This document shows positions 18,155 to 41,888 of a DNA stretch of 48,366 bases, piece by piece. This stretch comes from Thermoplasmata archaeon (GTDB lineage: Archaea > Thermoplasmatota > Thermoplasmata > Thermoplasmatales > Thermoplasmataceae): assembly GCA_021806295.1 (NCBI GenBank), contig JAJZXS010000023.1, positions 1 to 48,366 on the forward strand. Reading direction: 5' to 3'. The translations under genes were made by a program, and so were the position numbers. A model generated the notes under the pieces. That model saw only the letters and a list, made by a program, of their open reading frames with translations, was not told where the DNA came from and searched no databases. The stretch's first letter is position 1. Every line of letters starts with the position of its first letter.

Positions 18155-19003
18155 ATGGACAGATTATCAGTTACAGTGGCAGCAGCAATAATATTCGTTC
18201 CTGATTTTATTATGATATTTGCAATGAGGAATTTAATCTACAGCCAGACAATTGTGTATTTTGTTCTGATTTTTACTGCTGCATTTATACTGATAAAATT
18301 TATAAAAATATATGGCATTGTGGTTTTCTTATTGCTGGTACTGGCAGTTCTCCTCCTTTACCTTAAAACACTTTATGCATATACTACCACTGTTTCAAAA
18401 TATTTTTTCTACTTTCCTAATATGCCAGTATCGTATAAACTGATTCTTACTGTTATCACCCTTATAATAGCTTTTTTTGTAATACAGGGTATATTTTCTA
18501 CAACGTTCTGGCATTTGCTTTCCTACTATTTTACTGCCACGGGAATGCTGCTGATGCAGATGGCAACCCTGGCGTATATGAGGGCCGGAGATATTGGAAT
18601 AAATACGGTTTCTTACCTCTCCAGCTATAATTATATGTGGGTACTGGAATACCGGTCTGTTATTTCACTTCTGGCTCATGGCTACCAGACTTACCTTCCG
18701 CTTTACAGGCTGAGCCTTCCACTATCACTGCAACTCTCCGCAGGGTTTGCCATTTCTGTGATAGGATCTATTTTCTGGCTTTATGTAAAGGATAGCAAAA
18801 GCAATGACAATACAGCCGGTTCCTTCTCTATAGTCCCCGGGGTTATAATTGGATTTATTTTCTTTGTTTCGCTTCGCTATTTTATACCGGATAGATTTGA
18901 ATTCCTTTATATGGCTATTGTCATAGTTCTGGTTTTCATTATTATATCCTACAGCAACAGAAAGGGCAGGGACACTTCTATAAACATTGAAGGCGAACAG
19001 TGA
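18155..19003 (+). CDS. Polytopic membrane protein, last gene of the MoxR/DUF58 operon
   Basis: I do not recognise the family. The 282-residue protein is almost entirely hydrophobic, with about eight transmembrane helices in pairs (for example 10-29, 32-50, 52-69, 90-112, 117-135, 185-210, 220-240, 246-264), and a loop rich in Tyr and Ser between helices 5 and 6. It starts one base after the DUF58 stop, so it is certainly in the same operon. In related loci the membrane partner is a transglutaminase-core protein; no Cys-His-Asp triad of that type is visible here. It could be the membrane platform of the system, by position only. Confidence 0.7.
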   Translation: MDRLSVTVAAAIIFVPDFIMIFAMRNLIYSQTIVYFVLIFTAAFILIKFIKIYGIVVFLLLVLAVLLLYLKTLYAYTTTVSKYFFYFPNMPVSYKLILTVITLIIAFFVIQGIFSTTFWHLLSYYFTATGMLLMQMATLAYMRAGDIGINTVSYLSSYNYMWVLEYRSVISLLAHGYQTYLPLYRLSLPLSLQLSAGFAISVIGSIFWLYVKDSKSNDNTAGSFSIVPGVIIGFIFFVSLRYFIPDRFEFLYMAIVIVLVFIIISYSNRKGRDTSINIEGEQ

Positions 19004-19106
19004 ATTTCTTCTACAGCTACGGCATGATGTCTCCAGCTTTACTTTTAAAGCATACCGTGGCACTGAAACTATGCAAATAAAAGCAAAAATTTATAGTTAA
19101 TGCATG

Positions 19107-19117
19107 TATTATATATT
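19107..19117 (+). promoter_or_regulatory. Predicted TATA box of the candidate small RNA
   Basis: ATTATATATTA is centred about 28 nt before the start of the structured element at 19140, the spacing used throughout this window for transcription starts. No plus-strand open frame of plausible protein follows. Confidence 0.4.
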
Positions 19118-19139
19118 ATCATAGACCAGTAATAAAAAA

Positions 19140-19222
19140 CATGGTTTACCATCCAGCAAAAAGCTGGTGTAGTCCCATCAGCATTGCTGAAAGATGGTAT
19201 AACCCTGTTAAACAAGTGGTTT
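19140..19222 (+). ncRNA. Candidate structured small RNA (three-way junction)
   Basis: Seen in sequence: an outer stem pairs 19143-19153 with 19193-19204 (11 bp, one bulged T). Inside lie two hairpins, CAGC-loop-GCTG at 19154-19166 with an A5 loop, and TCAGC-ATT-GCTGA at 19178-19190, joined by an 11-nt single strand GTGTAGTCCCA. A TATA-like box lies one helical promoter distance upstream, and a T5 run at 19220-19224 could end the transcript. It matches no RNA family I know: no H/ACA or C/D boxes in correct places, not a tRNA. The element lies between two genes that point at each other, so it could alternatively be a bidirectional terminator. Confidence 0.4.
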
Positions 19223-19522
19223 TTCCTCTATTTCCCATCCATATAATCCATTGTATAAATTATAAACATTTTCTATTCCATTCTCCTCCAGGAATTTTCC
19301 AGTATAGTAGCTTCTATGGCCTGAACTGCATACAAGAACTATTTTTTTGCCCTCATATTTTTTTACAATGGAAATATCATTAAAAATATCGTACATAGGG
19401 GCAAGAATGGATCCTTCGATGTGCCCTGCTTCGTATTCGAACGGTTCCCTGACATCAATGATGACACATTCATCCCTGGCAACCATATCTGAAACCTCAT
19501 CGGGAATTATGTTCAAAACCAT
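19208..19522 (-). CDS. Rhodanese-domain sulfurtransferase-like protein
   Basis: This single-domain rhodanese of 104 residues carries the DVREPFEYEAGHIEGS motif and the active-site loop VCSSGHRSY with its nucleophilic Cys, so it should be catalytically competent for persulfide transfer. It is cytosolic. ATG 19522 is chosen over the longer frame (19639) because the rhodanese fold begins there and a minus-strand TTTTTTAAATA box at about 19540-19550 fits a leaderless start. It is encoded alone, facing the MoxR operon. In sulfur-rich acidic habitats, a role beside the SQR-like enzyme is possible but is inference only. Confidence 0.87.
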   Translation of the reverse strand: MVLNIIPDEVSDMVARDECVIIDVREPFEYEAGHIEGSILAPMYDIFNDISIVKKYEGKKIVLVCSSGHRSYYTGKFLEENGIENVYNLYNGLYGWEIEEKPLV

Positions 19523-27168: not shown

Positions 27169-27253
27169 TGCGGAGAGTGGGATTTGAACCCACGAATCCC
27201 TGCGGAAATGGACCCTGAATCCATCGCCTTTGTCCTAGCTCGGCAATCTCCGC
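27169..27253 (-). tRNA. tRNA-Leu (anticodon CAG)
   Basis: On the minus strand a perfect 7-bp acceptor stem (GCGGAGA with TCTCCGC) encloses a D arm with AGCTAGGAC, an anticodon stem ATGGA/TCCAT with loop TTCAGGG (anticodon CAG), a long variable arm as in leucine tRNAs, and a T arm GTGGG-TTCAAAT-CCCAC. The discriminator is A at 27169; CCA is not encoded. No intron is seen. The 5' 19 nt overlap the coding end of the alkyltransferase-endonuclease V gene on the same strand. Confidence 0.97.
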
Positions 27254-41803: not shown

Positions 41804-41888
41804 TGCGGAGGGTCGGATTTGAACCGGCGAACCCCTTTGGGAACAGATTTTGAGTCTGTCACCTTTAGCCTGACTCGGTAACCTCCGC
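41804..41888 (-). tRNA. tRNA-Leu (anticodon CAA)
   Basis: On the minus strand the acceptor stem GCGGAGG pairs with CCTCCGC. The anticodon stem ACAGA/TCTGT carries loop CTCAAAA (anticodon CAA, reads UUG). A long variable arm and D-loop GAGTCAGGC mark a leucine tRNA. The T arm GCCGG-TTCAAAT-CCGAC contains an A-C mismatch at the 50-64 pair. The discriminator is A at 41804; CCA is not encoded. No intron is seen. Confidence 0.96.

Follow-up and report, generated by a model that had tools for sequence, protein, structure and literature searches.

A conserved rod-like RNA in Ferroplasma and its candidate antisense target at the start of a TrpY-family regulator mRNA

Plasmid antisense RNAs of the CopA/CopT and RNA I/RNA II type begin pairing by kissing-loop nucleation, after which the duplex grows into the stem. 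In Methanosarcina mazei, trans-acting sRNAs have been described that mask translation starts (PMC3510493, PMC5867862). A different kind of RNA element is known from the Haloferax volcanii gene HVO_1309, which carries a 46-nt bulge-helix-bulge (BHB) intron in its 5' UTR that is cleaved in vitro (PMC7714728). Euryarchaeal splicing endonucleases are strict for the canonical BHB motif (PMC4090602, PMC7714728).

Here we describe an RNA element found in a 48,366-nt stretch of DNA, referred to as the window, whose source genome is a Ferroplasma. Like sRNA162 and sRNA154 of M. mazei the element is intergenic and has an unpaired region that is predicted to pair at the translation start of an mRNA; the predicted target of sRNA162 is, like the one proposed here, the mRNA of a transcription factor (PMC3510493). 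In contrast to these two sRNAs, to which it has no known sequence relation, its seed would consist of a hairpin loop together with the 5' arm, and the site would be codons 2–6 of an apparently leaderless mRNA instead of a ribosome-binding site. As in the plasmid antisense RNAs, pairing would probably nucleate at an apical loop of six bases. Unlike these bacterial kissing-loop RNAs it is archaeal, is encoded in trans at a separate locus and offers 11–13 nt instead of complete complementarity. Its middle part can be compared to the HVO_1309 intron, since in both cases a hairpin with an actual or, here, a possible BHB lies outside tRNA and rRNA and the excised segment is short (46 nt in HVO_1309, a predicted 32 nt in Ferroplasma). 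Unlike in HVO_1309, the putative Ferroplasma motif is off the minimum free energy (MFE) fold in four of six genomes, any cleavage is hypothetical, and the conserved part is the internal hairpin. The literature library that we searched yielded no publication about small regulatory RNAs of Ferroplasma or Thermoplasmatales.

A rod-like RNA between convergent genes

The element is located in the intergenic stretch 19004–19207 with convergent genes on either side. The upstream gene on the + strand codes for a membrane protein of unknown family (18155–19003) and closes a run of MoxR-like AAA and DUF58 genes; the downstream gene on the − strand codes for a single-domain rhodanese (19208–19522; PF00581, 70 bits), the start of which was set at a conserved MVLNI. 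Elsewhere in the window two tRNA-Leu genes with CAG and CAA anticodons are found on the − strand (27169–27253 and 41804–41888).

On the + strand positions 19143–19205 fold into a single long rod with an MFE of −30.0 kcal/mol and a folding z-score of −4.59; none of 200 shuffled sequences folded equally well. From the outside inwards the rod consists of an outer stem, an AAA bulge on the 3' side, a CAGC/GCTG helix, an A-rich asymmetric internal loop and finally a hairpin of 7 bp whose hexaloop reads UAGUCC. Our covariance model R1 has a core of 55 nt (19146–19200), with pairing that reaches to about 19143–19205, and the element of the window (19147–19199, + strand) scores 82.8 bits. The outer stem, the words CAGC/GCTG and TCAGC/GCTGA and a T5 run are located between the convergent genes where the earlier note had placed them. 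Such short complementary words are compatible with the closed three-way junction that it had drawn. The junction is, however, 8.4 kcal/mol less stable than the rod (−21.6 versus −30.0 kcal/mol), with an ensemble probability of about 3e-7. Neither of its inner hairpins has a pair that changes on both sides, and they are broken in G006 and in G001/G002, while the rod keeps pairing; the 11 nt taken for a single-stranded linker actually lie within the apical stem-loop. We consider the junction extremely unlikely.

The structure was tested on a gap-free alignment of six genomes (A3). In total 96.7% of the pair cells form, and six pairs show both-sided changes, a number that was reached in none of 500 shuffles; when the partners were slid by 1–3 columns, at most two both-sided pairs remained. 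Compensatory changes, suggested earlier as something to look for, are present for the rod fold in these six pairs. In the outer stem (19147–19153 pairing with 19193–19199) three of seven pairs change on both sides and 97.6% of the cells are paired. The middle 4-bp helix (CAGC at 19154–19157, GCTG at 19186–19189) is paired in 100% of the cells, and its replacement by CGAT/GTCG in G006 contributes two both-sided changes. The 5' side of the A-rich internal loop spans 19158–19162. Under the MFE fold 19158–19159 are paired in the window and 19158 is paired in G008 and G006; in the BHB register 19158–19160 form a 3-nt bulge and 19161–19162 pair with 19184–19185. Pair 17–39 of A3 changes from A-U to U-A in G006. 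The AAA bulge (19190–19192) is invariant in all six genomes, and so are the C-G pairs closing it on both sides.

The greatest conservation in the intergenic region is found in the apical segment. The apical hairpin (GCTGGTG-TAGTCC-CATCAGC, 19163–19182) is invariant at 17 of its 18 inner positions in the six genomes, and at the sole variable position A or G occurs with the pair kept as A-U or G-U. Since the sequence of the outer stem is free and that of the apical part is not, it is the apical hairpin whose sequence matters. Across the six genomes both a conserved secondary structure and a conserved unpaired seed are present. When the same structure is read on the reverse complement, 89.2% of the pair cells form. 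The drop arises from the wobbles, most of which are G-U on the + strand alone, and we regard the + strand RNA as the selected molecule. The existence of a structured + strand RNA is very probable. The candidate novel structured small RNA of the earlier note is supported by the covariation, the sense-strand bias, the near-invariant apical loop, the lack of a match to known families and the restriction to Ferroplasma.

We considered whether the rod is a 3'-end element, that is a hairpin that stabilizes or terminates the upstream + strand operon mRNA, sets the end of the − strand rhodanese mRNA, or does both, so that no separate RNA would be made. The position between convergent genes is consistent with this, and the rod begins 3 nt past the rhodanese stop codon. 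Furthermore, an A6 run on the + strand (19134–19139) reads as T6 behind the hairpin on the − strand and is a candidate terminator of the rhodanese mRNA; an A-run of 3–6 is present in all six genomes (T6 in the window, T3–T5 in the relatives). However, archaeal terminators are based on oligo-T and not on hairpins. The wobble pattern selects the strand opposite to the rhodanese gene, a near-invariant loop sequence would be needless for a terminator or stabilizer, and three Ferroplasma and two neighboring-genus genomes do without a hairpin at this place. We consider a 3'-end element as the whole explanation quite unlikely. As to a function purely as a bidirectional terminator, which had been named earlier as an alternative, such an extra role may exist, but termination alone would leave the invariant loop unaccounted for. 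The T5 run is indeed found at 19220–19224, but this is within the 3'-terminal part of the rhodanese gene's coding sequence, and the run is not conserved in G001/G002.

Distribution and putative transcription

Using blastn followed by the 55-nt core covariance model we found the element in six of ten Ferroplasma genomes, with one copy each at the same locus (76–84 bits). The clade with the element includes F. acidarmanus Fer1 (G001). In the 117 genomes of the order that were searched R1 had no match outside these six, i.e. in 111 others. The covariance search suggested earlier, carried out with the rod model, recovers the element in Ferroplasma but in none of the searched genomes from other genera of the order. 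The exact 18-nt core was found in only three Ferroplasma records among all GTDB contigs, where near relatives of the window have perhaps been left out. Three 18-mer matches to viral contigs have the core alone in common and no rod fold, and a 14-mer of the core in G005 and G007 is likewise without a rod and seems to be a chance occurrence within coding sequence. In view of the single copy per genome and the missing plasmid match we rejected a mobile element.

Between the flanking genes no hairpin is present in G004, G005 and G007 (Ferroplasma) or in G011 and G012 of a neighboring genus. In these five genomes the flanking genes almost abut, which makes a gain in the ancestor of the six genomes the simplest assumption. 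For G003 no RNA was found; the locus is missing from this 80% complete assembly, probably because of its incompleteness.

In agreement with the earlier statement that no RNA family could be named, there was no Rfam match at the gathering score, only sub-threshold noise (mir-299 and csRNA). A tRNA was rejected since there was no match at the gathering score, and ARAGORN reported nothing at the element. We also rejected a box C/D sRNA, as boxes C (RUGAUGA) and D (CUGA) are not conserved across the members: the words UGAUGU and CUGA are an accident of the stems, and the D-like CUGA is GUCGA in G006. An H/ACA guide has neither kept boxes nor a pocket here. We propose a new, Ferroplasma-specific RNA family that would belong to the small antisense-type RNAs.

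Upstream of the element a candidate BRE/TATA box (GCAAAAATTTATA, 19083–19095, + strand) is located in a block that aligns in G000, G009 and G008. It has a moderate score with a promoter motif learned from Ferroplasma tRNA promoters and would place the transcription start at about 19117–19123. This site scores above the TATA-like sequence at 19107–19119, yet its strength is not maintained across all relatives. The TATA-like sequence had been placed in the earlier note one promoter distance upstream of the RNA, but it scores like background, so that this promoter assignment is weak. The tRNA-derived motif did not single out the region upstream of the element, and no strongly conserved promoter was found there. 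We infer that the element is transcribed as a separate small RNA.

A candidate target at the start of a TrpY-family mRNA

For the target search the loop with two flanking bases per side was reverse-complemented (TGGGACTACA) and used as a single 10-mer query against the six whole genomes. Each genome contains 2–3 copies of TGGGACTACA including the RNA locus. One of these starts at nt 4 of the same gene (ATG-TGG-GAC-TAC-AT) in every one of the six. The remaining copies of the loop complement are located at coding positions that are not common to all six genomes. The gene codes for an ACT-domain regulator of the TrpY family (170 aa; 163.7 bits with NF053754, compared to a curated cutoff of 180). 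The proposed antisense (seed) segment UG(A/G)UGUAGUCCCA (19165–19177, + strand) is complementary to nt 4–16, i.e. codons 2–6, of the TrpY-family mRNA, so that mRNA UGGGACUACAUCA would pair with hairpin tip UGAUGUAGUCCCA. The complementarity comprises 13 nt in G009, G008 and G006, 13 nt including one G-U in the genome of the window, and 11 nt in G001/G002. As the tip is complementary to the start of the regulator mRNA, the RNA may switch that gene off.

Among 425 genes of G009 (400 kb) the TrpY start site is the best one both in duplex energy (−24.4, with −20.9 for the runner-up) and in length of uninterrupted complement (13 nt, next 7 nt). In 0.3% of the trials for these 400 kb composition-shuffled 18-mers matched some start region over 13 nt, which scales to about 1.4% (about 0.014) for the genome, a chance that is not negligible. 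In the apical hairpin taken in isolation, the net interaction energy including opening costs is −10.6 to −11.7 kcal/mol for all six cognate pairs, compared to +1.0 to −3.1 kcal/mol against the mRNAs of RNA-less relatives; opening the apical hairpin costs 6–9 kcal/mol. When the whole rod was allowed to pair in duplexfold, the net energy was unfavorable in four of the six genomes.

In a comparison of seven genomes of the clade nt 1–14 form the longest identical DNA run of the TrpY-family gene, the coding sequences of the diverged members being 71–80% identical. Of the conserved degenerate codons 20 of 111 are invariant. In the RNA-less Ferroplasma synonymous codons (GAT and/or TAT) break the target site, a comparison that comprises two codons in one clade. 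The TrpY-family start is located two codons earlier (MDMWDY) in the RNA-less genomes G004, G005 and G007. G003, for which no RNA was found, keeps the target site.

A TATA-like sequence (TTATTAAATA) is located at −32 to −23 of the TrpY-family gene, about 27 nt before the ATG, and its position suggests that the mRNA is leaderless. The gene (G009, L330 10534–11046) adjoins carAB-like and purE/purK-like genes, as judged by eye from the translations, and these neighbors suggest a nucleotide/amino-acid context for the regulator. At the end of a contig of G008 (G008:C69:2935-3030) another 5' fragment of the TrpY-family gene is found, which differs from the first and is closer to G003/G001; it probably reflects a strain mixture in the metagenome bin.

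From these observations we propose that the rigid rod presents the near-invariant apical hairpin, and that the loop UAGUCC would first pair with GGACUA of the TrpY-family mRNA. From there pairing would extend along the hairpin's 5' arm, and the resulting duplex at nt 4–16, right after the start codon, would measure 13 bp, or 11 bp in G001/G002. With codons 2–6 covered, ribosome binding would be blocked and translation of the regulator repressed; since the mRNA looks leaderless, a cover at this position should have this effect. The antisense role towards TrpY could as well be right as wrong. The whole explanation, a + strand small RNA gene whose product represses the TrpY-family regulator as a trans-acting antisense RNA, we hold to be only just short of evenly balanced. 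Presumably the regulator would be repressed under the control of a signal. The invariant AAA bulge is left unexplained by antisense action.

This bulge, together with the A-rich internal loop, resembles a protein-binding site and would fit a small RNA whose conserved structure has some other role, such as protein binding, a scaffold function or action on another target; the match to TrpY would then be a coincidence. The chance of such a match is the about 1.4% given above, and the TrpY-family protein keeps its W-D-Y residues anyway. A coincidence is harder to reconcile with a match that has the loop at its center and begins at codon 2 in each of the six genomes. Nor does it fit well that no stretch of invariant DNA in the gene is longer than the target site and that the site is broken in RNA-less species. 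We consider another role unlikely.

Bulge-helix-bulge processing and implications

A further possibility is that the middle of the rod is a BHB motif cut by the tRNA splicing endonuclease, which may equally be the maturation route of an antisense RNA. In all six genomes the 4-bp helix can be drawn with a bulge of 3 nt on the 3' side of both strands, and the helix cells are paired throughout. One h' pair flips from A-U to U-A, the BHB register pairs 96.7% of the cells compared to 94.2% for the MFE register, and the predicted intron has a constant length of 32 nt. The genome encodes a splicing endonuclease (roughly 291 aa), and the introns of Ferroplasma tRNA-Tyr and tRNA-Met share the geometry, that of tRNA-Met with just a 2-bp inner helix. 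HVO_1309 provides a precedent outside tRNA and rRNA (PMC7714728). In contrast, the MFE favors a helix of 5–6 bp with a 3x1 loop in four of the six genomes, by 1.9–3.5 kcal/mol, and the strictness of euryarchaeal enzymes speaks against such processing (PMC4090602, PMC7714728). BHB-compatible sites are also common by chance: the window contains 253, among which the element is second by helix energy and 11th by total energy. As the sole explanation we rejected the geometry, since it arises too often by chance. Processing as a BHB is rather unlikely overall, and improbable is the combined scheme in which the endonuclease would excise a 32-nt, possibly circular hairpin that then pairs with codons 2–6 of the leaderless TrpY-family mRNA.

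In F. acidarmanus Fer1 the tRNA-Tyr and tRNA-Met genes (G001:C1:620790-620889 and 1413926-1414014) contain short introns of canonical BHB geometry, the Met intron having about 15 nt. The Ferroplasma 16S rRNA processing stem is a nearly continuous helix with no obvious BHB in the flanks.

To our knowledge there are few archaeal examples of small-RNA control of leaderless messages. An RNA with a named candidate target, together with genomes that do and do not contain it, offers a direct test of such control in Ferroplasma. The element also bears on whether the splicing endonuclease matures RNAs beyond tRNA and rRNA in this order; if the combined scheme were true, the tRNA-splicing machinery would be reused to mature a regulatory antisense RNA.
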